Below, piece by piece: positions 3,474 through 50,624 of a stretch of 64,000 nt of DNA. The position numbers and the translations under genes are program-made. The DNA comes from Hydrogenophaga crocea (lineage in GTDB: Bacteria > Pseudomonadota > Gammaproteobacteria > Burkholderiales > Burkholderiaceae_C). The notes under the pieces are model-generated. The model worked only from the letters and a program-made list of their open reading frames with translations. It searched no databases and had not been told where the DNA came from. The stretch spans positions 2,108,001-2,172,000 of the forward strand of contig NZ_CP049989.1 of NCBI RefSeq assembly GCF_011388215.1, given 5' to 3'. How positions within the stretch are numbered: the stretch's first letter is position 1; every line of letters starts with the position of its first letter.

Positions 3474-4685
3474 TCAGCCCAGGCGCTGCGCGATCTCGGC
3501 CACCAGCGCGCGCGCCAGCGAGAGCTTGTCGGCACGGGGCAGCTCGCGCGCGCCCTGCGCGTCCACCAGCAGCAGCGCGTTGTGGTCGAGTCCGAAGGTG
3601 TCGGGGCCGATGTTGCCCACCAGCAGCGGCACGCCCTTGCGCGCGCGCTTGGCCTGGGCGTGGGCCAGCAGGTCGTGGCTTTCGGCGGCAAAGCCCACGC
3701 AGTAGAGCGCGCCACTTTGCGCGCGCGCGCTGGCGGCCACGCCGGCGAGGATGTCGGGGTTCTCCACGAAGGCCAGCGCGGGCACGGCGCCGCTGCCGTC
3801 CTTCTTGATCTTCTGGCCGGCCTCGGTGGCGGGCCGCCAGTCGGCCACCGCGGCGGCGGCGATGAACACGTCGGCCGCGTCGGCGCTGGCCTGCACCGCG
3901 CGCTGCATGTCGAGCGCCGATTGCACGTTCACGCGCTGCACACCGCGCGGCGTGGGCAGGGCCACGGGACCGGCGACCAGCGTCACCTGTGCGCCCGCCT
4001 CGCGCGCCGCCCGCGCGATGGCGAAGCCCATCTTGCCGCTGCTGCGGTTGGTGATGCCGCGCACCGGGTCGATGGCTTCGAAGGTGGGGCCGGCGGTGAT
4101 CAGCACGTGGCGGCCCGCGAGGCGCTTGGGCTGGAAATGCGCGATCAGCTCGTCAAGCAGCTCGTGCGGCTCGAGCATGCGGCCGTCGCCGGTTTCGCCG
4201 CAGGCCTGCTCGCCCGAGCCCACGCCCAGCACCACGGTGCCGTCGGCGCGCAGTTGCGCGAGGTTGCGCTGCGTGGCCGGGTGGGCGTACATCTCGCGGT
4301 TCATGGCGGGCGCCACGATCAGCGGCACGCGCTCGATCGGGCGCGCCAGGCACAGCAGCGAGAGCAGGTCGTCGGCGCGGCCGTGCAGCAGCTTGGCCAT
4401 GAAATCCGCGCTCGCGGGCGCGATCACGATGGCGTCGGCCTCGCGGCTGAGGTTGATGTGGGGCATGTTGTTGCCCTCGCGGGCGTCCCACTGCGAGCTG
4501 TAGACCGGCCGGCCCGACAGGGCCTGCATGGTTACCGGGGTGATGAAGTGTTCGGCCGCTTCGGTCATGACCACCTGCACCGTGGCGCCGGCCTTGATCA
4601 GGCCGCGGCAGAACTCCGCCGCCTTGTAACAGGCCACCCCGCCGCTGAGGCCGAGCACGATGTGTTTTCCCGCGAGATCGCTCAT
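3474..4685 (-). CDS. coaBC: Bifunctional phosphopantothenoylcysteine decarboxylase / phosphopantothenate-cysteine ligase
   Basis: A 403-residue cytoplasmic enzyme of coenzyme A synthesis. It ligates cysteine to 4'-phosphopantothenate (CoaB, C-terminal half) and decarboxylates the product to 4'-phosphopantetheine (CoaC, N-terminal FMN half). The CoaC part shows [16 protein letters not shown], the catalytic His motif [17 protein letters not shown] and the PAMNREMY flap. The CoaB part shows [22 protein letters not shown] chose the ATG at 4685 ([13 protein letters not shown]); the open frame extends upstream but family alignment supports this start. It is divergent from pyrG and followed closely by the nitroreductase gene. 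Confidence 0.96.
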
Positions 4686-4699
4686 GGGGCGCAATGTAG

Positions 4700-6469
<1,770 letters not shown>

Positions 6470-36974: not shown

Positions 36975-38261
36975 ATGCCATCTGCTACCCTCGACCGGAT
37001 GTCTGTCTCTCCCTCGCCAACCCCCATGTCCGCGGGCCTGGTGGTGCTGGTGCTCACGCTGCTGCTGGGCATACAGCCCGTCACCACCGACCTGTACCTG
37101 CCCGCGCTGCCCACCCTCACCGCGGGCTTCGGCGCCGCGGTGGCGCAGGCCCAGCTCACGCTCACCGCGCTGCTGCTCGCCTTCGGCACCTCGCAGCTCG
37201 TGTGGGGCCCGCTGTCCGACCGCTTCGGCCGCAAGCCGGTGCTGATCGCGGGCATGGGCCTGTTCGTGGTGGCGGCGGTGGGCGCGGCGTCGTCCACGTC
37301 CATGGGCCAGCTCATTGCCTGGCGCATCGTGCAGGGCGTGGGCATGGGCGCGGCCGTGATGTGCGCGCGCGCCGTGGTGCGCGACCTCTACGCGCCCGCC
37401 GAAGGCGCGCGCGTGATGAGCAAGGGCCTCACCGGCCTGGGCGTGATCGCCTGCTGCAGCGCGCCGCTCGGGGGCCTGCTGTCGGACCTGTTCGGCTGGC
37501 GCGTGGCGCTGCTCGCGGTGGCCGCGTTCGGCGCGGCCACGCTGGCGCTGCTGGTCTGGCGCTTCCACGAAACCGTACCGCAACGCAACCCGCAGGCCCT
37601 GCAGCCCGCGCGCCTGCTGCACACCTGGCTGCAGATCGCTCGCCACCCCACCTTCCTGACCTGGACGGTGCTGGCCACCGGCTCCTACGCGGGCCTGTTC
37701 ACCTTCCTCGCCTCGTCGTCCTTCGTGCTGATTGGCGTGCTGGGCCTGAGCAAAACCCAGTACGGCGTGATGATGTTCACCATGTCGCTGAGCTACATCG
37801 TGGGCACCTTCATCTGCCGCCGCCTGCTGCCGCGCCTGGGCGTGCGCCGCACCGTGGCCACGGCGGCCGTGGTCACGCTCACGGGCGGCACGCTCATGGG
37901 CGTGCTGCCGCTGCTGGGCGTGCAGACGCTGTGGAGCGTGGTGCTGCCCTTCTACCTGTTCATGCTGGGCCACGGCGTGCACCAGCCCTGCGGCCAGAGC
38001 GGCGCGGTGGCGCCGTTCCCGCAGGCCGCGGGCGCGGCCTCGGCGCTCGCGGGTTTCATCATGATGGTGGTGGCCTTCGGCGTCGGCGGTTGGCTCGGCC
38101 TCGCGCTGGCGCGGCCCGAGCTCGGCGCCGGCACCGTGCGCCCGCTCACCGACGGCGTGTGGTTCTGGAGCACGCTGATCGCGGTCACCGCCTGGACCCT
38201 GGTGCAGCGCCACGGCGAAGCCCACACCCCGCCGCAGCGCCAGGGCGTCGCCACGCCATGA
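36975..38261 (+). CDS. Bcr/CflA-type multidrug efflux MFS transporter
   Basis: A 428-residue, 12-helix inner-membrane drug:proton antiporter of the Bcr/CflA subfamily. It has [17 protein letters not shown] in helix 1, the MFS motif [18 protein letters not shown] between helices 2 and 3, and the antiporter-type [16 protein letters not shown] in helix 5. Three in-frame ATG codons (36975, 36999, 37026) occur before the first helix; the latter two would shorten the N-terminus. Its stop overlaps the miaA ATG (ATGA), so expression is coupled. Confidence 0.9.
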
Positions 38262-39229
38262 ACGCCCCCGCGCCACTGCGTTGCATCGCGCTGGCCGGCC
38301 CCACGGCCAGCGGCAAGACCGCCGCGGCGCTGGCGATCGCGGCGCGCTGGCCGGTGGAGATCGTGAGCGTCGATTCGGCGCTGGTCTACCGCGGCATGGA
38401 CATCGGCACCGCCAAGCCCAGCGCGGCCGAACGCGCGGCCGTGCCGCACCACCTGATCGACATCCTCGAGCCCACGCAGGCCTACAGCGCGGCCGACTTC
38501 GTGCGCGACGCCACTCGCCTGGTCGGCGAGATCGCCACGCGTGGGCGCACCGCGCTGCTCGTGGGCGGCACCATGCTCTACTTCAAGGCCCTGCTCACCG
38601 GGCTCGACGACCTGCCCGCGGCCGACGCCGCGGTGCGCGAACGCCTGGAGGCGCGCGCCCGCGCCGAGGGCTGGCCCGCGCTGCACGCCGAGCTGCAGCG
38701 CGTGGACCCGGTGAGCGCCGCGCGCCTTTTTCCCAACGACGCGCAGCGCATCCAGCGCGCGCTCGAGGTGTTCGAGGTCTCGGGCCGGCCGCTGTCGGCC
38801 TTTCACACCGGCCGCGGCGCCGACCCGCACAGCCCGCTGCGAGAAGAACACCTGATCGCGCTCGAACCCGCCGACCGCGCCTGGCTGCACGCGCGCATCG
38901 CCGCGCGTTTCGACGCCATGCTCGCGGCCGGCTTCGTCGACGAAGTGCGCGCCCTGCGCGCGCGCGGCGACCTGCACCCCGAGCTGCCGGCGATGCGCTG
39001 CGTGGGCTACCGCCAGGCCTGGGCCGCGCTCGACGCCGCGCCCACCCCCGACGCCGCCGCGCTCGCCGAACTGCGCGAGCGCGGCATCTTCGCCACGCGC
39101 CAGCTCGCCAAGCGCCAGCTCACCTGGCTGCGCTCGCTGCCGCAGCGCCGCGTGATCGCGGCCGACGCGCCCGATGCGCTCGCGCAGGTGATGGCCGCCG
39201 TGGCGGGCTGGCTGGGAGAACCCGCATGA
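38258..39229 (+). CDS. miaA: tRNA dimethylallyltransferase
   Basis: A 323-residue enzyme transferring a dimethylallyl group to A37 of tRNAs reading UNN codons. The Walker A is [15 protein letters not shown], followed by [30 protein letters not shown] and [18 protein letters not shown], and a C-terminal [16 protein letters not shown] tRNA-binding region. Length and motifs are intact. It begins inside the MFS gene's stop (ATGA) and ends inside the next gene's start (ATGA), forming a three-gene coupled run. Confidence 0.97.
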
Positions 39230-39876
39230 GCTTGCTCGTGGAAGGCCTGGCCAAGCGCTACGGCGACACGCCGGTGTTCGGCAACGTGCATCTGCGCCTC
39301 GAACCCGGCGAGTTCGTGGCCGTGGTGGGCGAATCGGGTGTGGGCAAATCGAGCCTGCTCAACTGCCTGGCCGCGCTCGACACCTGGAGCGAGGGCCGCA
39401 TCACCCACGACGGCACCGACCTCGGCGCGCTCGACGAAGCGCAGCGCGCGCACTGGCGCCGCCGCCACCTGGGCTTCGTGTTCCAGGCCTTTCACGTGCT
39501 GCCGCACCTGGACGTGGCGCAGAACGTGGCCCTGCCCCTGCTGCTGCTGAACCAGAGCGACGACGCGCGCGTGGCCGCCATGCTCGACGCCGTGGGCCTG
39601 CAGGGCATGGGCGCGCGGCTGCCGGCCTCGCTCTCGGGCGGACAGCTGCAGCGCGTGGCGATCGCCCGCGCGCTGGTGCACCGCCCCGCCATCGTGCTGG
39701 CCGACGAGCCCACCGGCAACCTCGACCCCGACACCGCGGCCCGCGTGATGGACCTGCTGCAGGCACAGACGCGCGAGCACGGCAGCTCGCTGCTGCTGGT
39801 GACGCATTCGGACGCGGCGGCGGGGCGGGCGGATCGGGTGCTGCGGCTCACACGCAGCGGCCTGCAGCGAGACTAA
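39226..39876 (+). CDS. ABC transporter ATP-binding protein (LolD/MacB-like), without its permease
   Basis: A 216-residue ATPase. Walker A is [15 protein letters not shown], the Q-loop [12 protein letters not shown], the signature [16 protein letters not shown], Walker [12 protein letters not shown], and the switch His in LLVTHSDAA. This is the LolD/MacB/FtsE subgroup that works with an FtsX-like permease. It is coupled to miaA by ATGA. No permease follows: the coding sequence ends at 39876 and the next 500 nt are non-coding before the low-G/C-bias island starts. An insertion may have separated it from a partner, or the partner lies elsewhere. Confidence 0.88.
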
Positions 39877-40023
39877 CTCAGCGTTTCGCTGCCGCGGCTT
39901 CGACAGGCCACTTGACGGGTGCAACCGCAGGCTGGCTCGCCTGGCAACTGGCGAGAGCGTGCAGACCCGAACAAGGTGACGGCATACGGGCGAACGCTCG
40001 CTATCGGCTCTCACGGTTTAAGG

Positions 40024-40046
40024 CACCAAAAAGTGTTTATTTGGTG
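40024..40046. promoter_or_regulatory. Inverted repeat in the island's upstream region
   Basis: CACCAAA (40024-40030) and TTTGGTG (40040-40046) are perfect 7-bp arms around a 9-nt A/T-rich centre. It could be an operator for the island transcript or a hairpin; nothing in the sequence decides which. Confidence 0.35.
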
Positions 40047-40152
40047 TTGGCTCGGAGGGTAATGGACCGAACGAATCAGTTGCCTGGGGTTACACAACGC
40101 ATGCAGGCGCGCTTGACCGCGCCGACACCAGCAACATGTTCAGGGAGGACAT

Positions 40153-40203
40153 ATGACCACCGCCGCATTGGTGCGCTCCGCAGGTTCTGATCGCGTGAGC
40201 TAG
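40153..40203 (+). CDS. Possible 16-residue peptide
   Basis: ATG at 40153 is preceded at a good distance by a strong AGGGAGGA ribosome-binding site and encodes MTTAALVRSAGSDRVS before a TAG. It could be a leader peptide, a regulatory upstream frame or the remnant of a truncated gene. The 42-residue frame 40062-40190 overlaps it in another phase. Nothing in the peptide identifies a function. Confidence 0.25.
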   Translation: MTTAALVRSAGSDRVS

Positions 40204-40321
40204 CGCAGATCAGCTTCCTAAATCCCGTTTGGCTCATACAGATATGTCTGCCGTGATCGCAGATGTAAGTGCCTGCGCGCGCGGCATTGCTGCACACATC
40301 AACCATCGCTACTTCGTCAAG

Positions 40322-40362
40322 TGGCGGTGGCGTTCACCCCCATAAGTGCATAGCCACCGCCA
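40322..40362. promoter_or_regulatory. Perfect 10-bp inverted repeat just before the putative precursor gene
   Basis: TGGCGGTGGC (40322-40331) and GCCACCGCCA (40353-40362) are exact inverted repeats with a 21-nt loop, ending 45 nt before the 40408 start. It could be an attenuator, an operator or an mRNA-stabilising 5' hairpin of the island operon. There is no T-run, so it is not a simple terminator. Confidence 0.45.
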
Positions 40363-40407
40363 AACGTCAGGCCTCATTGGCCTTTCACTTCTTCAAAGGA
40401 ACTTCCC

Positions 40408-41118
40408 ATGAATTCGAATGCGATCGACTTGAGTGCGTCCAATTGGTGCCGGGACATGCGGGAGATCTTCCGCCACAGCCCCACCGCTTTCAGCGAGTTC
40501 TTGCAGCAACCAGTCATTGCTATTGGTGAGCTTGGCTTCGACGACGATGTGCGCCTTAGCGATGGCGCTGTCAGCAAAGTCAGCACAATCCTGGCCAGTC
40601 TTTCCGCGCTAGAACTCAATCAGGTGATCGAAGCCGTCAGTCCCATCACATATCGCGCAGGCGATGGAGGAGGAGGTGGGGGTGACGGAACATGCTCAGG
40701 CGATGCCGGAGGCACTGGCAGCGATTGCGGCGATACGGGAGACACGGGCGACACCGCAGGCGTCGCCTCGGCCGTCGCTGTGGCCTCAAACGTCGCTGTA
40801 GTAGGCGAAGTGGCTGTGGCCGTCGCTGCGGTGGTCGTCGCAGTCTATGGGGGGGCAGTGGAGAACCCCTCGGTTCTGGTGCTGTCGCCAAAGATGGGCA
40901 TTGAATGGTCGCCGGACTTTGCTGACTCGGATGCCTACCGTCATATGGCAGACGAAGGCCTCACGGACCGACGCAAACGCGCATTGATCAAGCAGCGTCT
41001 CATCGAATCCCGCACCGCAGAAGGTCGACTGGAGGTCGAGATGATGGGCAAGCAGGCGTGGTTCGAAATCGCCCAACAGGGCAGCACGATTCGCGTTCTG
41101 TCGGGCGGCATGCTGTAA
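40408..41118 (+). CDS. Putative RiPP precursor: leader-like N-terminus, Gly/Asp/Thr/Cys-rich core, V/A-rich segment
   Basis: A 236-residue protein of no recognised family, with AAAGGAAC as ribosome-binding site. Residues 1-80 are ordinary and helical (REIFRHSPTAFSEFLQQP, then ILASLSALELNQVIEAVSP), resembling a long RiPP leader. Residues 84-118 are almost only Gly, Asp, Thr, Ser and Cys, with seven Gly in eight positions near 87-92 and a triple GDT repeat at 108-116. Cys96 and Cys107 lie in this part. Residues 119-150 are a Val/Ala-rich hydrophobic stretch. Residues 151-236 look like a small folded domain (WSPDFADSDAYRHMADEGL, ending STIRVLSGGML). First gene of the island, 59 nt before the radical SAM gene. 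The precursor role is inference. Confidence 0.5.
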   Translation: MNSNAIDLSASNWCRDMREIFRHSPTAFSEFLQQPVIAIGELGFDDDVRLSDGAVSKVSTILASLSALELNQVIEAVSPITYRAGDGGGGGGDGTCSGDAGGTGSDCGDTGDTGDTAGVASAVAVASNVAVVGEVAVAVAAVVVAVYGGAVENPSVLVLSPKMGIEWSPDFADSDAYRHMADEGLTDRRKRALIKQRLIESRTAEGRLEVEMMGKQAWFEIAQQGSTIRVLSGGML

Positions 41119-41177
41119 ATGAAGAGACCAGAGTGGGCCGGCGGCTCACTCTTCTTCCGAAGAACAGAAAGCACACC

Positions 41178-42239
41178 ATGACGCCGCTGTTTCCCAGGAT
41201 GCTCACCATTCTCACCACCAACACATGCACCGCCGAGTGCGGGCATTGCACCGTTCACTCATCTCCTCAGCGTTCAGGTCGCCTTTCGCTAGAGGCCATG
41301 ACGAAGGTCATTGACGAACTGCATACTGCCGATGGCTTGCAGGTTGTGGTGTTCGCGGGTGGCGAACCCACGCTGCTCAAGGAGAACTTGCTTGAGGCCA
41401 TCGCCCACTGCGATTCCCTGGGCATATCGACCCGCATGGTCACCAATGCATCCTGGGCCGTCAGCGACCATGCAGCGCGACGCATGGTGCGCAAGTTACG
41501 CGAAGCAGGCCTAGCCGAATTGAACCTCAGCGCGGACGACTTCCACCTGCCATACATCTCATTCGACAATATCAAGCGGGCGTGGCGAGCAAGCAAGGGA
41601 CAGGGCTTTCTCAATGTGGCTATCGCAAATTGTCATGGACCGCGCAGCCAGATCACGCCCGAGTTCATTCGCCGGGAACTAAACGAGCCAGACATCGACG
41701 TTCGTTTCGACGAAGACGGAAGCCAGACGCAACCGCGCTCGACGCACGACGACGGGTCCACCTACATGCTCTCCAATGGTCTACTACAGCGCATAGGGCG
41801 TGCCCGAAACACGCTTAAAGACGAAGATCTGATCTTCCCTGCATCGCAGACGCAGTTGAATCGCCCTTGTCCCTGGGCGGTTCGGTCCGCCGCTCTGGCG
41901 CCCAATGGCCATCTTGTCGCCTGCTGTGGCATCGAAGCTGCCGGTAACGAAGTCCTTGATTTCGGCAGCACCGATGAAGAGAGCGCGTCCGCGAAGGCAC
42001 GCAAAGCTTCGCAAGATGTACTGATCAAGGGGATCGCAACGCTCGGCCCATACATGCTTCTCCATTTGGCGGGTGCGCTCGACCGCCATCGCACGGTAAG
42101 CACACGTGACCGATATGCCTCCATGTGCGAGGCCTGCGAAGATCTTGTGCGGCAGCCCAGCGCGGTTTCGGTATTGCGCAAGCACTGTTCCGTGGTCGAA
42201 CGCGAACTGGCGGCTGCCCAAGCGAAGGAGGCCCGGTGA
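41178..42239 (+). CDS. Radical SAM protein with SPASM-like auxiliary cysteines
   Basis: A 353-residue enzyme. The 4Fe-4S/SAM site is TTNTCTAECGHCTVH (CxxxCxxC, Cys17, Cys21, Cys24), followed by VVFAGGEPTLL (GGEP, 61-64). Extra cysteines in the C-terminal half, Cys231 (RPCPWAV), Cys249-Cys250 (VACCGIE) and Cys317/Cys320 (SMCEACEDL), resemble a SPASM/twitch auxiliary cluster of peptide-modifying maturases. It probably makes C-C, C-S or epimerised residues in the upstream protein. No clear RRE (peptide-binding wHTH) domain is visible at the N-terminus. The open frame continues upstream, but the ATG at 41178 fits the family start. It is 28 nt before the hydrolase gene. Confidence 0.85.
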   Translation: MTPLFPRMLTILTTNTCTAECGHCTVHSSPQRSGRLSLEAMTKVIDELHTADGLQVVVFAGGEPTLLKENLLEAIAHCDSLGISTRMVTNASWAVSDHAARRMVRKLREAGLAELNLSADDFHLPYISFDNIKRAWRASKGQGFLNVAIANCHGPRSQITPEFIRRELNEPDIDVRFDEDGSQTQPRSTHDDGSTYMLSNGLLQRIGRARNTLKDEDLIFPASQTQLNRPCPWAVRSAALAPNGHLVACCGIEAAGNEVLDFGSTDEESASAKARKASQDVLIKGIATLGPYMLLHLAGALDRHRTVSTRDRYASMCEACEDLVRQPSAVSVLRKHCSVVERELAAAQAKEAR

Positions 42240-42267
42240 CTGACCGGAAAACTCAAACGTATTCTGA

Positions 42268-43824
42268 ATGTCGGGAATGAAACTCTCCGAGAACTTCTTT
42301 TTCGACGTCACTATTGCGGGCAAGTTGCTGGCAGAGTCCTCCGCGCTGTGGTTTCCGAATGCCGACGCTAGTGGGAATTTCCTGCTCCTCGCAAGAACCA
42401 GAAGCTTGGAGGGACCAGCAAAAGACGCCTGCACTGCTCACAGTCTCACGGCGTACACGGCGCAGGGCCATGTATCGGGCTTTTCGGTGCGCTACGGAGA
42501 TGGCAAGTGGGTGCGGTACCAGATCGATGCTTCGGGCTATCGCGTGCTTTGGTCGAGTTTCGGAGAACCGGTTTCAACGTCAGGACCCGCCATTTGTACT
42601 ATTCTGGAGCACAACAACATCGCGGCCCTTGTGTTGCTGATGCGCATGGCTTCATCGCAATTGGCACCCGGCGAGCGCAAGGCCTGCGCAGTGCTACTGC
42701 CAGAACTCAATAGGACGACCGAATTGCAGCTGGTGAGGCAGGCAGATGAGGTGCTCTGCGAAACACTTGGCCTGCGCTACGCACCACCACTGCACGGGCG
42801 AGCTGAAAGCCTGCAGTTCGTGGAAAGCCGGGCGCTGCTCAGGCAAAGGCAGAAGCCAGACGAAGCAGAACTCGTCGAGGAAGGGCTGGCTTTGGCTGAG
42901 CTCCAAAGGCAGTTGGGGTCAGACGTCTATAGGTCATCCTCGCCAACGAGCATACGGTTCAGCGACTGCTTGGCGGCAGCGGGCGCAGACACACCGCCAT
43001 TGGCGGCCTTGTTCACTCCAGCCGTGGGCACGTCCCGCGGCTTGTTCGTGTTGATCGGTGGCTCGGGCGAGTACGACTCTCGAGGTTACACGCGGCTAGG
43101 CGAGAACCTTGGGTACCGCCATTGGATCACCCACATGGCGCTCCACGGCCTTGACGTTCTATCGGTCGGGCGAACCAATGACGCTGCGATGGACTTCGAG
43201 GTCTACCGGACTGCATTGCTTCGGCTGATCTCCCTGCATCGCCCAATTCAGACGCGAGCTTTGGTGCTGGCTGGTCATAGCCTGGGCGGACTGGTGGTGG
43301 CCGACATCGCACCCGACATGCATGGGCTCGCTGCGGTGGTCATTGCGGCTTGCCCTGCCCGAGGATTGCGAAAGACGATCCTGCGCCAGTCCTTCGCGCA
43401 GTCTCTGAGTCCATGTCGGTCCGCACAGCCACGCGACCGCACTGTGCTGCGCCAGCAGGCACAGGCGTTCGACCGATTGATCCACGGCGAGGCATCGTCG
43501 CCAGCAGCCGAACTCCGGCGCGGCGATCGCGCACTGATCACGCACTTTGCGGAATGTCAGGCACCCTTGCTACTTGAACGCTGGCCGGCCAATACCCCGC
43601 TGCTGATCATGCACGCCGACGGCGACGAAAAGGTCAACATCAGCGACGCGCACCGATGGCATACGGCCGCGGTCAAGAAGGGCTTGAGGGCAGAAAGTTA
43701 CCTACTGCAGGGCAAGGACCATGTCTTTGGACTGATGGCGCCCGAGGCAGACCCTGCCGAGGTCCTGAATTCGGTCACCGACTTTCTGCGCGGGCCGCTG
43801 TCGACCTGGCGAGCGCCGTCGTGA
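42268..43824 (+). CDS. Alpha/beta hydrolase with a long unique N-terminal region
   Basis: A 518-residue protein. Residues 1-240 match no fold I recognise. Residues 250-512 are an alpha/beta hydrolase: GLFVLIGGSGEYDSRGY, MALHGLDVLSVGRTN, the nucleophile elbow AGHSLGGLVV (Ser338), Asp in IMHADGDEKV (451 or 453) and His in QGKDHVFGLM (His485). The triad is complete. In this context it could remove a leader peptide, hydrolyse a maturation intermediate or act as an immunity esterase; none can be proved. ATG 42268 and 42277 are both possible starts. The 3' end overlaps the next gene in GTGA. Confidence 0.75.
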   Translation: MSGMKLSENFFFDVTIAGKLLAESSALWFPNADASGNFLLLARTRSLEGPAKDACTAHSLTAYTAQGHVSGFSVRYGDGKWVRYQIDASGYRVLWSSFGEPVSTSGPAICTILEHNNIAALVLLMRMASSQLAPGERKACAVLLPELNRTTELQLVRQADEVLCETLGLRYAPPLHGRAESLQFVESRALLRQRQKPDEAELVEEGLALAELQRQLGSDVYRSSSPTSIRFSDCLAAAGADTPPLAALFTPAVGTSRGLFVLIGGSGEYDSRGYTRLGENLGYRHWITHMALHGLDVLSVGRTNDAAMDFEVYRTALLRLISLHRPIQTRALVLAGHSLGGLVVADIAPDMHGLAAVVIAACPARGLRKTILRQSFAQSLSPCRSAQPRDRTVLRQQAQAFDRLIHGEASSPAAELRRGDRALITHFAECQAPLLLERWPANTPLLIMHADGDEKVNISDAHRWHTAAVKKGLRAESYLLQGKDHVFGLMAPEADPAEVLNSVTDFLRGPLSTWRAPS

Positions 43825-44258
43825 AATTCAGCTCTGTTGCTGTTGTACTCGCACACCGTGTCCCTGAGCTCTGGGCGCAATGCCGGCCGCTTATCCAATC
43901 GGCCATTGCCACGTCACCGGACCGGGGCAACGTTGATCGCATCTACGACCAGCTGCTTATGGGAGAGCGGGAATTACTCGTAGGCCTGGATTCGCTGGGC
44001 GCCGTGCAAGCAGTTTTGGTGTTGCGGTACCAGCCCGAGCGCGACGGCTTCATCGTCCATATCCAGGCCGCTGCCGGTCGCGGCCTGTTGTCCGCAAGGG
44101 ATGAGTGGGCAGAGCTGCTCCGATGGCTTTGCACGAAAAAGGTCAAACGCATTCAGTTGCACTGCCAGGCGGCCCAAGAGCGGCTGTGGCGAAGAATGGG
44201 ATTTGAAACAGCCTACCGCGTAATGTGGTTCGAAATGCCGGCGCAGGGGGAGAAATGA
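43821..44258 (+). CDS. GNAT-like protein
   Basis: A 145-residue protein starting with GTG at 43821, overlapping the hydrolase stop by 4 nt (VKFSSVAVVLAHRVPELWAQ). The pattern is that of a small GNAT acyltransferase: an N-terminal helix pair, a beta segment GLDSLGAVQAVLVLRYQ, and a C-terminal LHCQAAQERLWRRMGFETAYRVM, which corresponds to the GF-containing acceptor-side strand of GNATs. A clear Q/RxxGxG/A acetyl-CoA loop is not obvious, so activity is uncertain. It may acylate the peptide product or a self-protection target. It is coupled to the ABC gene by ATGA. Confidence 0.6.
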   Translation: MKFSSVAVVLAHRVPELWAQCRPLIQSAIATSPDRGNVDRIYDQLLMGERELLVGLDSLGAVQAVLVLRYQPERDGFIVHIQAAAGRGLLSARDEWAELLRWLCTKKVKRIQLHCQAAQERLWRRMGFETAYRVMWFEMPAQGEK

Positions 44259-45961
44259 TGGTGTTGCGCGAGAGCCTTGGTGGCGTTCGCCAGCTTCTGG
44301 AGCCACTAGCGATGTACCGCCGTGCGATTGTCTCGATCTTCTCGGCCGCTTTGCTCGTGCAGGTACTCGCGCTGGTGAGCCCATTGCTGAGCCAAATGAT
44401 CGTCGACCATGCCGCAGGGCTTGCGATGCATGGCGACGCCTTTTACATCGTCTTTGGCTACGGCCTGGTGCTGATGACGGCGGCGATCGCGGAATGCATT
44501 CGAAGCCTTTGGGTCAATGCGGTGCTGGCGCGGCTCGAAGCCGATGCCCACCCTCAGGCTTATTCGGTGGTCTTCGGCTCGTTCTCGCGCGATGCCTTGC
44601 AGCTCAATACGTCGGAAGTGATTTCTCGGTTCCAGTCCTTGCGCACTGCGCACCAGGGCGTCGGCAACATCCTGGTCGAAGGCGTGGTGGACAGCTTATA
44701 CGTGGTGACCATATTGGCAGCCCTGGTGGTCTATGACAGCCTGATCGCGTCGGCGGCTGCATTGGCAGTGACGATCTACTTCGCAGCGAGACTGCTCGTG
44801 GGCAGGCGCCTGACCAAGGTGACGCGCGAGATAGCCCAAGCAGACGCGTCCCAGGTGGCGTACCTGAAAGATGAGGTGGACGCTCATCAGTCGGTGCGTT
44901 TCTTCGATGCCCACTCGGGCCGCAGAGCCGACTGGAATGCTCTTGTGACCGGGCGTTTGCGCAAGGAGGCAGAGCGTGCGAGGACCACTGCACTATTGCG
45001 CTGCATCCAGCAGTTCAGCATCGGCGCCATCTCGGTGATCACGATTGCGGTCGGCGCTCATCGTGTTGGCATTGGTGAACTTCCCCTCGGGGCAATGTTC
45101 GCCCTGATCGGATTGACCTATGCAATGTTCACCCGCATGACCGTTCTGACCGAGCGCTTGTCATCGCTGGATGTGCTGAACGTGCACTGGCGCCGTTTCC
45201 GCGAACTGGCCCATCGGCCCAGTCAGCCAAGGCGAGCCCTCGTTCGCCTGTGCGATCCCGATGCGGGTTGGCAGCCCGGTCTGCATATTCATGACTTACG
45301 AGTAGCCTTTGCCGGACGCACGGTGCTTGATCTGAAGCCTGTTGTTTTCCCTAGGGGTAAGCTCACCGTGATCGTGGGGCGATCGGGCGAGGGCAAGACG
45401 ACGCTGGTACGAGCAATCACGGGACTGGTGCCATGTGAATCGCTGGAAATGAGTTGCGTGGCACAACCAGCGGATACAGACACGGGTCTGGAATCGGTAT
45501 GGAACGAGCGCCAATGGAGCCGCCACTGCGCAGCTTGCTTTCAAGGCGACGCCTTGTTCGACGGCGTTCCGATCGCGCAGAACATCGCGTGCTACGACCC
45601 GGCGCTCGACATGGAGCGCGTCGAACGCGCCGCACGCTTGGCCTGCATCGAGGCGGATATCGTGCGCCTGCTGGGTGGCTATCACGCCCCCACGGCGGTG
45701 CAAAAGCTGTCGGAGGGCCAAGCGCAGCGCCTGTTGGTGGCCCGTGCCCTCTACCGGGCGCCGCTGGTGCTGCTGCTCGACGAGGCCACGTCTGCCTTGG
45801 ACGAACACACCGAGGGCGCAATCATCGAGAACGTCAAGGGGCTTGGTGTGACCGTGATTGCAGTAGCCCACCGACCGCAGTGGATTAGGGCAGCAGATGC
45901 GGTGCTGCGGCTTTCCAACGGCAGTTTGCGGTTTGTCTCCCCCAAGGAGGACACTGCATGA
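44255..45961 (+). CDS. ABC exporter, fused membrane and ATPase domains, no C39 peptidase
   Basis: A 568-residue half-transporter. Residues 20-300 hold about six membrane helices (IVSIFSAALLVQVLALVSPL, VVTILAALVVYDSLIASAAA, ISVITIAVGAHRVGIGELPL). The ATPase domain has Walker A VGRSGEGKTT (375-382), signature LSEGQ (485-489, with Glu in place of the usual Gly), Walker B LVLLLDE (504-510) and His539. It lacks the N-terminal C39 peptidase of bacteriocin PCAT exporters, so any leader must be removed by another enzyme. With the HlyD protein encoded at 47039 it should form an export channel for the cluster's product. It starts at the ATG in the upstream stop (ATGA). Confidence 0.88.
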   Translation: MMVLRESLGGVRQLLEPLAMYRRAIVSIFSAALLVQVLALVSPLLSQMIVDHAAGLAMHGDAFYIVFGYGLVLMTAAIAECIRSLWVNAVLARLEADAHPQAYSVVFGSFSRDALQLNTSEVISRFQSLRTAHQGVGNILVEGVVDSLYVVTILAALVVYDSLIASAAALAVTIYFAARLLVGRRLTKVTREIAQADASQVAYLKDEVDAHQSVRFFDAHSGRRADWNALVTGRLRKEAERARTTALLRCIQQFSIGAISVITIAVGAHRVGIGELPLGAMFALIGLTYAMFTRMTVLTERLSSLDVLNVHWRRFRELAHRPSQPRRALVRLCDPDAGWQPGLHIHDLRVAFAGRTVLDLKPVVFPRGKLTVIVGRSGEGKTTLVRAITGLVPCESLEMSCVAQPADTDTGLESVWNERQWSRHCAACFQGDALFDGVPIAQNIACYDPALDMERVERAARLACIEADIVRLLGGYHAPTAVQKLSEGQAQRLLVARALYRAPLVLLLDEATSALDEHTEGAIIENVKGLGVTVIAVAHRPQWIRAADAVLRLSNGSLRFVSPKEDTA

Positions 45962-46518
45962 CGATTGCTGTTCATGACGGCTTTCTTGCTCGCCATCACG
46001 TGGCCATGCTTTTCGAGCGATTGAACGAACGGGGCTGGACCTATGGATGGATGGCGGATCGATCCTCGAACAGGCCGGCGCGCCACTGGCATGTCAATCT
46101 GGCCGACAACGGTTTCCAGGCGGAACAATCGTGCCTACCCGAACTGGAGACCTTGAGTGCTTGGTCCGACTTGCTGCCGCTTTGGGGCTCGATCGCCAAG
46201 ATGCTGCCTCAGGGCCATCAACCGACACGCATCTATGCGAACGCGCATACCTACGGTGTGGATGGTGCGCTGCACACCGATTGCCCACCGGGAACAGGGG
46301 GGCGCACCGCACTGATCTACCTCAATCCTGTGTGGAAGCCTGATTGGGGAGGCGTCACCCTGTTCACTCCGGCCGAGAGCGACCCCTTGTCCGTCATGCC
46401 CAAGCCGGGGCGCTTGGTGATATTTCCTGGCGACGTACCCCATTGCGCATTCGCGCCCACGAAGTCGTGTCATGACCTGCGGGTAACACTCGTCTTCAAG
46501 AGCAAGGTCCTCCCATGA
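45958..46518 (+). CDS. 2OG-Fe(II) oxygenase (prolyl-4-hydroxylase-like)
   Basis: A 186-residue double-stranded beta-helix oxygenase. The iron facial triad is His106-x-Asp108 in ALHTDCPPG and His162 in GDVPHCAFAP. The 2-oxoglutarate-binding Arg is Arg175 in DLRVTLVFK. TALIYLNPVWKPDWGGVTLF is the typical core strand pair. It probably hydroxylates or desaturates a peptide side chain in the island product. It is coupled on both sides by ATGA overlaps (45958 and 46515), so it belongs tightly to the operon. Confidence 0.85.
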   Translation: MTIAVHDGFLARHHVAMLFERLNERGWTYGWMADRSSNRPARHWHVNLADNGFQAEQSCLPELETLSAWSDLLPLWGSIAKMLPQGHQPTRIYANAHTYGVDGALHTDCPPGTGGRTALIYLNPVWKPDWGGVTLFTPAESDPLSVMPKPGRLVIFPGDVPHCAFAPTKSCHDLRVTLVFKSKVLP

Positions 46519-47042
46519 GCAGGCTGCTGTTCACCGCACGCGCTTTACTCGACTCACTGTCGCTTGATCTGGTGCCGCACGGAAATGGCCAACTGCACGA
46601 TCACCTGGTACGAACAGCCGCGTACCTACACGGCTGGGGATTCGACGACGAGGTGTGCGCTGCTGGGATGTTTCACAGCATCCTAGGTACCAGCCATTAT
46701 TCGTATAGGGCGCTGCCACTGCACGACATGCCTCGACTTGTGAGCGCAATCGGTTCACACGCTGCACGCCTGGTTGGCCTGTTTGCGGTGGCCAGGCGAC
46801 CCGTAGGTCCGGCCCATGCTCTCGTGACAGGACGTCTTGGTTTGTTGCACGGCGGGGAGGAAGCAGTTTCGCCCCGAGAAGCATGCGACCTTGTGTCGAT
46901 TGAGTACGCGAATTTGGTGGACCAGGGTGGCGAGGCGGCGCTGCTGAAAGAGCTTCACCACTTGCCCCTGAGCCCGATGACGCGCGCCAACGATGCCGTG
47001 ATGCGCTCCTGGGGTTCGGCTCTGCTGGCCCTGCGGGCATGA
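46515..47042 (+). CDS. DUF6817/HD-like helical protein
   Basis: A 175-residue all-helical protein. GQLHDHLVRTAAYLHGWG followed by EVCAAGMFHSILGTSHYS gives an HD-domain-like His/Asp metal set (His28, Asp29, His30, His54), matching what I recall of DUF6817. The second half has a conserved-looking YANLVDQGGEAALLKELH. Such proteins are met near oxygenases and natural-product genes, with unknown chemistry; a metal-dependent hydrolase or oxygenase role is possible. It is coupled to both neighbours by ATGA overlaps. Confidence 0.6.
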   Translation: MSRLLFTARALLDSLSLDLVPHGNGQLHDHLVRTAAYLHGWGFDDEVCAAGMFHSILGTSHYSYRALPLHDMPRLVSAIGSHAARLVGLFAVARRPVGPAHALVTGRLGLLHGGEEAVSPREACDLVSIEYANLVDQGGEAALLKELHHLPLSPMTRANDAVMRSWGSALLALRA

Positions 47043-48232
47043 AGGCATCGGCTGACGAGTTCGAGCCTCGTCTCGCATCATGGGTGGGTATCTTGATCAC
47101 ACTCGGAGTGGTCGCCTATCTTTTGTTCGGTGTGAGTGTCGCTGCACGGGAGGTGGTACACGGACGCGTGCTTTACCAAGGTGCTATCACGCACCTTGCC
47201 GCGCCGATTGATGGCTATATAGAGGGAGTCTTCGTGCAATCTGGCCAACGCGTCAAAGCGGGCGACAAGCTTCTGTTGATCCGCCATGGCAGACACGTGG
47301 CAGAAAACGGCACGGGCCTGGCCGACATCGAACGGACGCTTGAGCGCCGTGTTCACCTGACAGCAGAACGCAGCCGTTCACAACGCCGCCTGCTGATGTT
47401 CGAACATGACCAGTGGGACGGTCGGGAACGCGCGCAAGCGCGCGAAATCGAGGCGCTCGGCAGGCAGATCGCACTGGTCGAAAGGCTCATATCGTTGCAG
47501 GCGAAGGCGATGGAGCGAACTCGGCAGATGATTGAGCAAGGCTTCTATTCGCAGGCACTCGGAGAGGACAAAGAGCGTGAGGCGGTCGACCTTCAACTGC
47601 GCTTGCAGGAGTTGCAAAGATCGCGACAGACCAGTGAGTCCTTGCAACGCGAAGCCAGCAGTCAACGGCAAGCGAATGCACAGCGCCTGGCCCAACTGGA
47701 CATGGAAACCGCCACTGAACAAGAGTCTTTGGCCTTTCAACAGGGCGAGCTTGCCATGAAGAACAGCGCTGTTCTTGTGGCCCCTTCAGATGGCTTGGTG
47801 GACAGCCTTGCAGTCAGGATTGGCGACGATGTCAAGGAGAAGCAACGCATGGTGGCGGTCAGAAAGGTGGATGAGAACTTCCGCATCGAGCTTGATGTTC
47901 CATCCACTGCCGCGGGCTTTCTGCGGGTGGGGCAGCGGGTCGATGTGAAGTACGACGCCTTTCCCTACCTCAAGTACGGCTTTGGCAAAGGCGAAGTCAC
48001 CTTTATTGGAACAACCTCAGTTCAGGATAGCCTGGACGAAACCCGTTCGGGTGAGGCCGTCTTTAAAGCTGTGGCGCAAGCGTCTTTGCCCACCGGACTC
48101 GCCCGGACGGGCGATTACCAACTGCGCGATCGCATGGGGGTTCAGGTTGAAGTGGTTGTGATGGAGCGGGCGCTGTATCAGTGGATCTTCGATCCCCTGA
48201 TCGCTGCGCGTAGATATCTCGCCGGGGACTGA
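47039..48232 (+). CDS. HlyD-family membrane-fusion/adaptor protein
   Basis: A 397-residue periplasmic adaptor. An N-terminal membrane anchor at residues 14-36 (SWVGILITLGVVAYLLFGVS) is followed by a first biotin/lipoyl half motif (GAITHLAAPIDGYIEGVFVQSGQRV), a long coiled coil (residues about 95-245) and a second half motif (SAVLVAPSDGLVDSLAVRIGDDV). A beta-barrel region with AGFLRVGQRVDVKYDAFPY closes it. It should bridge the ABC exporter to an outer-membrane channel, which is not encoded in the island. Last gene of the operon, coupled to the previous one by ATGA. Confidence 0.9.
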   Translation: MKASADEFEPRLASWVGILITLGVVAYLLFGVSVAAREVVHGRVLYQGAITHLAAPIDGYIEGVFVQSGQRVKAGDKLLLIRHGRHVAENGTGLADIERTLERRVHLTAERSRSQRRLLMFEHDQWDGRERAQAREIEALGRQIALVERLISLQAKAMERTRQMIEQGFYSQALGEDKEREAVDLQLRLQELQRSRQTSESLQREASSQRQANAQRLAQLDMETATEQESLAFQQGELAMKNSAVLVAPSDGLVDSLAVRIGDDVKEKQRMVAVRKVDENFRIELDVPSTAAGFLRVGQRVDVKYDAFPYLKYGFGKGEVTFIGTTSVQDSLDETRSGEAVFKAVAQASLPTGLARTGDYQLRDRMGVQVEVVVMERALYQWIFDPLIAARRYLAGD

Positions 48233-48320
48233 GGCCACCGGCTGCGCACCATGTGTCGGTAGGCGACGCGCGCATTCAGCATCGACCGGCTGACGCTTTC
48301 CACATCTGTCAGCATAGGCG

Positions 48321-48343
48321 GCCTGGCAAGTAGCTGCCCAGGC
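48321..48343 (+). terminator. Imperfect hairpin 88 nt after the island operon
   Basis: GCCTGGCA and TGCCCAGGC can pair with one bulged C around the loop agtagc. There is no T-run, so a factor-independent terminator is doubtful, but it is the only hairpin between the HlyD gene and zwf that I can see. Confidence 0.25.
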
Positions 48344-48381
48344 AAAGCCTCCCCATTCAAAGTCACCACCCGTAACTCACA

Positions 48382-48396
48382 GGTAACTTTATTACA
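48382..48396. promoter_or_regulatory. HexR-like palindrome upstream of zwf
   Basis: The 15-mer GGTAACTTTATTACA, 43 nt before the zwf start, is close to the TGTAAT-N3-ATTACA type operator described for HexR, the KDPG-sensing regulator of Entner-Doudoroff genes in proteobacteria. The genes downstream are exactly its usual targets. Several further GTAAC/GTAAT half-sites surround it (48371, 48415). hexR itself is not in the window. Confidence 0.55.
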
Positions 48397-48438
48397 TTAC
48401 CATCACCCCACCGTGTAACCCAAAACAAGCCTCACGCC

Positions 48439-49907
<1,469 letters not shown>

Positions 49908-49911
<4 letters not shown>

Positions 49912-50624
49912 ACGAGCCCTCGCGCCTGCACCCCTGCGCCTCGCCGGCCGCGCTCGCGCACGGCCTGGCCGCGTGGATCGCCGAGCGGCTGCGCGCGGCC
50001 ATCGCCGCGCGCGGCCACGCGGTGCTCGCGGTGTCGGGTGGCAAGTCGCCGGTGCCGCTGTTCGAAGCGCTGCGCACACAAGCGCTCGACTGGCCGCGCG
50101 TGCGCATCACCCTGGTCGACGAGCGCTGCGTGCCGCCCGGGCACGCCGACAGCAACACCGCGCTCGTGCGCACCCACCTGCTGCAAGGCCCGGCCGCCGC
50201 GGCCACGTTCGTGCCCTGGTTCGACGCCCTGCCCGCGGCCTTCGACCCCGCCGACGCCACCCTGCAGCGCCTGGCCGACGGCGCGAACGCGCGCCTGGCC
50301 CACCAGCCCTGGCCCTGGGACCTCGCCGTGCTCGGCATGGGCGAAGACGGCCACACCGCCTCGCTCTTTCCCGGCGCCGACGGCCTGGCCCACGCGCTGC
50401 ACGCCAGCGGCCCCGTGGCCTGGACGCGCCCCGCCACCGCGCCGCACGCGCGCCTCACCCTCACCCTGCCCGCGCTGCTCGCCACGCGGGAACTGGTCTT
50501 GCCCCTGATCGGCCCCACCAAGCTGCGCGTGTTCCAGCAGGCCCGGCTGGCGCAAGACGAAGCGCTGCCGGTCTCGCACCTGCTGCACCAGCACCACACG
50601 CCGGTCCACGTCTGGCTGGCCTGA
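49908..50624 (+). CDS. pgl: 6-phosphogluconolactonase
   Basis: A 238-residue SugarP_isomerase-fold hydrolase opening 6-phosphogluconolactone to 6-phosphogluconate. Family marks are [36 protein letters not shown], and [19 protein letters not shown] with the catalytic His. It starts with GTG inside the zwf stop (GTGA), so it is translationally coupled. The codon before the family start ([10 protein letters not shown]) and the overlap fix the start well. edd follows 13 nt later. Confidence 0.93.

Follow-up and report, generated by a model that had tools for sequence, protein, structure and literature searches.

The window analyzed here is a stretch of 64,000 nucleotides of the Hydrogenophaga crocea genome (contig NZ_CP049989.1, positions 2,108,001 to 2,172,000 of the forward strand), and all positions given for it are counted from its first letter. 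Between 40408 and 48232, it holds eight genes, all on the + strand, which encode a 236-residue Gly-rich protein, a radical S-adenosylmethionine (SAM) enzyme, an alpha/beta hydrolase, a small GNAT-like protein, an ATP-binding cassette (ABC) exporter, a 2-oxoglutarate (2OG)-Fe(II) oxygenase, a DUF6817 protein, and an HlyD-type membrane fusion protein. Judged from sequence, there is a good probability that the product of this operon is an exported ribosomal peptide carrying D-residues.

The island and its insertion site

An initial annotation of the window had described a horizontally acquired island of eight genes on one strand, with 4-nt overlaps linking the last six and with base and codon use less G/C-biased than in both flanks. 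All of this was borne out. The list of open reading frames (ORFs) places the five overlaps at 43821–43824, 44255–44258, 45958–45961, 46515–46518, and 47039–47042. GC content is 58–62% per gene on the island, where the GC fraction at third codon positions (GC3) is 0.65–0.72, against a GC3 of 0.95–0.97 in four flanking genes; these were named by reading their translations, with no family search, as a major facilitator superfamily transporter, zwf, pgl, and edd. Promoter-like and terminator-like motifs occur at a frequency near chance.

The insertion site was compared by blastn between the window and stretches from four relatives (G1175, G1160, G114, and G1172). In G1175, the segments matching window positions 37826–39851 and 48382–50235 lie ~110 bp apart, with flanks 84–87% identical, and because the flanks nearly adjoin there, 39852–48381 (no strand) is read as an insert of ~8.5 kb. 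The corresponding gap in G1160 is ~150 bp. This 8.5-kb segment of low GC, missing in both relatives, is a horizontally acquired island. G114 and G1172 have ~6 kb at the same place with no blastn match to the island, and the G114 segment resembles a sugar ABC-type operon by a reading of its ORFs. Since two relatives hold other genes and two are nearly empty, while the island stands here, the zwf side is a site that varies within the genus. It is flanked by a lolD-like ABC gene and zwf (names read from sequence; relatives L068–L071 compared).

Predicted precursor and epimerase, and accompanying genes

The 236-residue protein (40408–41118) is likely a three-part precursor made up of a leader, a Val/Ala core, and a follower. 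Profiles of leader and follower were built from 11 precursors of other loci, the window's own family and the core being removed after a joint alignment, and the protein ranks first of the 602 window ORFs with both the leader profile (E = 0.0035; residues 1–84, 40408–40659) and the follower profile (E = 3.5e-5; residues 163–236, 40894–41115). Between these parts lie a variable Gly/Asp/Cys linker (residues 85–116, 40660–40755), which is shorter and free of Cys in the homologue P0123, and a predicted Val/Ala-rich core (residues 117–150, 40756–40857, approximate ends), which is the most conserved stretch across three homologues and sits where other loci have their Val/Ala/Asn (V/A/N) cores. When the window precursor is aligned with P0122 and P0123, the N-terminal and C-terminal parts are both conserved, and between them a Gly-rich linker that varies is followed by a near-invariant stretch around SAVAVASNVAVVGEVAVA. 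The initial annotation had taken the small Gly-rich protein as the source of the peptide; its role as precursor stands, but the Gly-rich stretch is the variable linker, and the predicted core is the Val/Ala stretch. An early regular expression for the follower had found precursors in only 7 of 30 loci and was replaced by the profiles. Matches of the precursor to Microcin B17 (16 bits vs 70) and to a PHROG tail protein were set aside as apparent composition noise.

The radical SAM enzyme (353 residues, 41178–42239) is likely best read as a peptide epimerase of the YydG/EpeE type. Its best NCBIfam model is TIGR04078 YydG (1.7e-25, 90 bits), with the next model at 51 bits, and YydG is likewise the top NCBIfam model for the Klebsiella and Vibrio enzymes, both of the relatives tested. 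A family profile run against the PDB has the EpeE/YydG structures 8ai1–8ai6 as its top matches (E ~1e-23). Cys223 of EpeE is the proposed H-donor according to PMC8326336. The extra cysteines that the initial annotation had pointed out in the window enzyme hold up well: in an alignment with 41 homologues (from 120 listed of 208 found), C231, the CC pair C249 and C250, and the CxxC cysteines C317 and C320 are present in all 42 sequences, window included, and C17, C21, and C24 in 41, the remaining row being truncated. A second, weak PDB stretch (i-Evalue 0.82 alone) pairs the C-terminal CC and CxxC with those of EpeE, and in it the second Cys of the CC pair, EpeE chain residue 248, faces window C250. 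We take residue 248 to be Cys223, presuming a 25-residue offset between a chain of 344 and a native protein of 319 residues. No PoyD model stands among the NCBIfam matches listed (25 of 59), PoyD itself being outside the comparison.

Cysteines past the radical SAM core could also serve an enzyme that forms thioether or carbon crosslinks, as in sactipeptides, ranthipeptides, or cyclophanes. The two Cys in the window linker might take part, and a V/A-rich stretch near the distant L047 enzyme does hold two Cys. We consider such crosslinking improbable: neither the linker nor the core of P0123 contains Cys, the predicted window core lacks the donor Cys of sactipeptides and ranthipeptides, none of 21 cores trimmed by eye contains one, and SPASM and sactisynthase models reach at most ~40 bits, vs 90 for YydG, among the same matches listed. 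Apart from the YydG/EpeE-type epimerase that we favor, an antiviral viperin came up (PADLOC pVip, 45 bits; NCBIfam prokaryotic viperin, 41 vs a cutoff of 180) and was rejected because YydG scores 90.

Pfam bears out the gene names of the initial annotation, the GNAT-like one excepted. The alpha/beta hydrolase (42268–43824; PF12697, 8.8e-9; PF00326, 1.4e-6) carries a GHSLGG motif and is a candidate leader/follower peptidase; weak homologues are found in L006, L008, and L009, directly after the enzyme only in L006. The small protein that starts with GTG (43821–44258) owes its GNAT-like label to the initial annotation; searches of Pfam, NCBIfam, and PHROG placed it in no family. The ABC exporter (44255–45961; PF00664, PF00005) has the NHLP bacteriocin exporter as its best NCBIfam model (171 bits vs a cutoff of 853), and the Klebsiella ABC protein, of 719 residues, is annotated as "peptidase domain-containing." The 2OG-Fe(II) oxygenase (45958–46518; PF13640, 1.1e-7; prolyl 4-hydroxylase structure, E = 2.6e-4) is a candidate core hydroxylase. 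Its NCBIfam match to "FlmC" is far below threshold (71 vs a cutoff of 240); the work on Flagellimonas FlmA (PMC12703449) concerns peptide arginases and does not explain the window oxygenase; and a PHROG match to "DNA endonuclease V" was set aside, as it conflicts with the Pfam 2OG domain. The DUF6817 protein (46515–47042; PF20680, 1.2e-16) and the HlyD-type membrane fusion protein (47039–48232; PF16576, 2.1e-15) complete the operon.

Related loci and the pattern of their cores

A pattern-based scan with the enzyme alignment returned 58 loci in a species-genome collection and 7 plasmid records, 4 of which were examined. By a split of our own choosing, we distinguish a close set of 29 (L003–L028 and L061–L063; best segments 34–52% identical) and a distant set of 33 (L029–L060 and L064), which includes L055 (33%) and the short segments of L051, L053, and L060 (40–42%). 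With the full precursor profile (E ≤ 1e-5), a homologous precursor is found in 22 of the 29 close loci and in none of the 33 distant ones; 11 of these 22 loci are outside the profile seeds, although L026 and L063 nearly duplicate seed sequences. Weaker profile hits and V/A-rich ORFs are still present in the distant loci. Biosynthesis and export of a ribosomally synthesized and post-translationally modified peptide (RiPP), as first proposed in the initial annotation, is well supported by this count, and the check that the annotation had named, whether homologues of the radical SAM gene occur without the small protein, came out for a RiPP. Seven close loci are negative by profile. The L004 stretch begins ~140 bp before the enzyme match, and L006 has a different precursor candidate (4512–4931) with a V/A/N core beside the enzyme and a leader that, we presume, resembles a peptidoglycan-binding domain. 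L010 and L012 have no precursor candidate, and the three Fibrobacter loci (L011, L015, and L016) have a weakly matching leader before Pro/Ile-rich cores. The L014 match falls in the leader and the first part of a long Gly-rich ORF.

ORFs with V/A/N-rich cores lie near the enzymes of Vibrio ruber, Phaeobacter, Actinomyces oris, Cellulosimicrobium, and Collinsella, and most of them can be aligned over leader and follower. In Collinsella (L063, 7240–7965), the precursor is annotated as DUF5969 (PF19394), and this domain is its follower; the family, for which Pfam states no function, gains a possible role as a precursor follower. The window follower, in contrast, has no Pfam match. The conserved synteny of the radical SAM gene and the 40408 protein proposed as a check was not seen in close relatives, but the two are co-conserved across distant phyla. 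Together with the common architecture of leader, core, and follower, this co-conservation makes it very improbable that the 236-residue protein is structural or a carrier and that the enzymes make some other metabolite, even though the GNAT-like, DUF6817, and hydrolase proteins have no established role. A scan of IMG/VR gave one weak relative. The precursor profile had 7 hits among 5.8 billion proteins, a result with little bearing on breadth, as only 8000 word-sharing candidates were scored.

Candidate modification genes accompany the enzyme in many of the close loci. Of these 29, 23 encode a HemK/PrmC-like methyltransferase within ~3 kb of the enzyme (E ≤ 1e-20), and 11 encode a B12 radical SAM enzyme anywhere in the examined stretch; among the 33 distant loci, the corresponding counts are 0 and 1. 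The L009 B12 enzyme, the only one tested, is above the cutoff of TIGR03975, a RiPP C-methyltransferase. The one methyltransferase tested, from Klebsiella, has as its best PDB matches 7rc2–7rc6 (E 3e-14), titled "Methyltransferase family protein," which we take to be AerE of aeronamide; a literature search did not confirm the code.

The Klebsiella cluster (L062) is plasmid-borne, on pmk4 of Klebsiella sp. PL-2018 (NZ_CP077677.1, 10859–21621), with genes for SdpI, precursor, radical SAM enzyme, methyltransferase, an uncharacterized 562-residue protein, an HlyC-like acyltransferase, HlyD, ABC protein, and alpha/beta hydrolase. The SdpI-family gene adjoins the precursor, a colicin-like gene is nearby, and the acyltransferase suggests an acylated product. 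The Klebsiella and Vibrio clusters both have SdpI-family, HlyC-like, HlyD, and ABC genes plus another alpha/beta hydrolase. At the Vibrio loci L053 and L057, with more distant enzymes, larger proteins with V/A-rich stretches are encoded downstream, ~1 kb past the start of the enzyme match.

Over the 19 of 21 by-eye-trimmed precursor cores with at least three Asn, 421 of 427 Asn pairs no more than 12 residues apart are even-spaced, while 5000 shuffles of the cores gave a mean of 49% and a maximum of 58%; repeats such as (AN)n contribute much to this parity. Taken individually, 11 of the 19 cores have p < 0.005; in the remaining 8, which have three to six Asn, p lies between 0.05 and 0.36. The set leaves out every distant locus and, in addition, the near-duplicate Collinsella precursors L026, L027, and L063, the Fibrobacter loci, P0123, and L014. 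When 9575 ORFs were scanned automatically for at least four Asn of the same parity in a V/A/N-rich segment of 30 residues, 23 were returned (18 precursor candidates from close loci, 1 from a distant Vibrio locus, and 4 others), and at a threshold of at least five Asn, 15 of 16 were precursors. Even spacing of Asn is what an L/D beta-helix would need, and it suits alternating, polytheonamide-like peptides.

The predicted product and its relation to known systems

Epipeptides (YydF/EpeX with YydG/EpeE, Bacillus subtilis) resemble the window system in their enzyme, with YydG as the best model and CC and CxxC motifs that align weakly. Val is reported among the epimerized residues there (PMC8326336), and YydF is reported to undergo two epimerizations and to give a 17-residue product (PMC7026026). 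The window differs in its precursor, which is not short and YydF-like but has a core of ~34 residues with a large leader and follower, and in its ABC and HlyD exporter. Polytheonamide and aeronamide, proteusins with a PoyD-type epimerase, are similar in other respects. For peptides of the polytheonamide type, PoyE and AerE are described as methyltransferases acting on Asn, and PoyB/PoyC as B12 C-methyltransferases (PMC11285071); a polytheonamide-like proteusin core holding three GANANA repeats, together with a PoyD-like epimerase, is also reported (PMC7157528). Our relatives have Val/Ala/Asn/Gly-rich cores, with GANANA repeats alongside a YydG-type enzyme in L003, and genes resembling the Asn and B12 C-methyltransferases; the window itself has the 2OG oxygenase. 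What sets them apart from proteusins is the YydG-type enzyme, the conserved follower after the core, and the leader: the window precursor has no NHLP match in NCBIfam, hence no nitrile hydratase-like leader above the family cutoff, and NHLP-clan matches are sub-threshold and limited to two of the five relatives' precursors tested.

From these comparisons, a pathway can be proposed. The ribosome would make the 236-residue precursor, which is present as an ORF. In the Val/Ala core, the radical SAM enzyme would abstract hydrogen from C-alpha atoms, with a cysteine giving hydrogen back from the opposite face; this would leave D-residues, probably at alternate positions, as inferred from the homology to EpeE and from the cores of the relatives. 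Hydroxylation of the core is probably the task of the 2OG oxygenase, and the alpha/beta hydrolase probably helps to remove leader and follower, a role assigned to it because the ABC transporter shows no peptidase domain. Export would run through ABC and HlyD, probably via a housekeeping TolC. Least certain is the last step, in which the product would fold as a beta-helix and act on membranes as a bacteriocin or cytotoxin. The window product is probably a membrane-active peptide with D-residues, and alternation of these residues together with membrane action is plausible.

A number of observations weigh against this picture. The YydG score lies well under the family cutoff of 300 bits expected of an epipeptide enzyme, the match spans mainly the first 140 residues, and the structural pairing of the C-terminal cysteines is weak. 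Pfam recognizes no N-terminal peptidase family in the window ABC protein, and Pfam and NCBIfam find no methyltransferase or B12 enzyme among the eight genes, so that the operon lacks the Asn N-methyltransferase and B12 C-methyltransferase of polytheonamide-like pathways, a lack consistent with an Asn-poor core. The window core has a single Asn, which makes Asn parity inapplicable, and its large and small residues do not alternate significantly (p = 0.11; P0122, p = 0.02); such alternation reaches p < 0.05 in only 6 of 21 cores. In three Fibrobacter loci (L011, 4002–4988; L015, 9185–9979; L016, 9236–9979), a weakly matching leader is joined to Pro/Ile repeat cores, and the enzyme family need not always make beta-helices. 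The enzyme is found only in its own genome among 399 family genomes (E ≤ 1e-30), and again among 399 order and 398 phylum genomes (E ≤ 1e-40), samples that overlap, belong to larger groups, and each include that genome. Finally, no SdpI gene was recognized by Pfam in the window operon. This absence of an SdpI-type immunity gene, with an SdpI relative in only 5 of the 29 close loci, would also fit a D-residue RiPP whose product is not a membrane toxin but a signal or surface peptide. We regard that as rather unlikely given the SdpI-family and colicin-like genes around the Klebsiella precursor, the permeabilization of membranes reported for the epipeptide YydF (PMC7026026), and the membrane activity and cytotoxicity reported for polytheonamides (PMC11285071).

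The window locus belongs to a widely scattered class, of which it is a compact form lacking methyltransferases. We lean toward viewing that class as a widespread RiPP class unnamed in the open literature, with a YydG-type instead of a proteusin epimerase, a leader and a conserved DUF5969-like follower, alternate D-residues in Val/Ala/Asn-rich cores, and polytheonamide-like membrane peptides, folded as beta-helices, as its products in both Gram-negative and Gram-positive bacteria, plasmid-borne clusters included. No description of this gene combination was found in the open-access literature, most subscription papers and preprints lying outside the search. The known channel peptides of the polytheonamide type stem largely from symbionts of sponges and from a few bacteria in culture, where proteusin machinery makes them. 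If the class is real, a second and apparently independent enzyme lineage makes polytheonamide-like peptides in common bacteria, such as Vibrio, Rhizobium, Collinsella, Actinomyces, and the host of a Klebsiella plasmid. The class would then offer culturable sources of ribosomal peptides with D-amino acids and give DUF5969 a role, and one could test directly whether beta-helical peptides have more than one origin.

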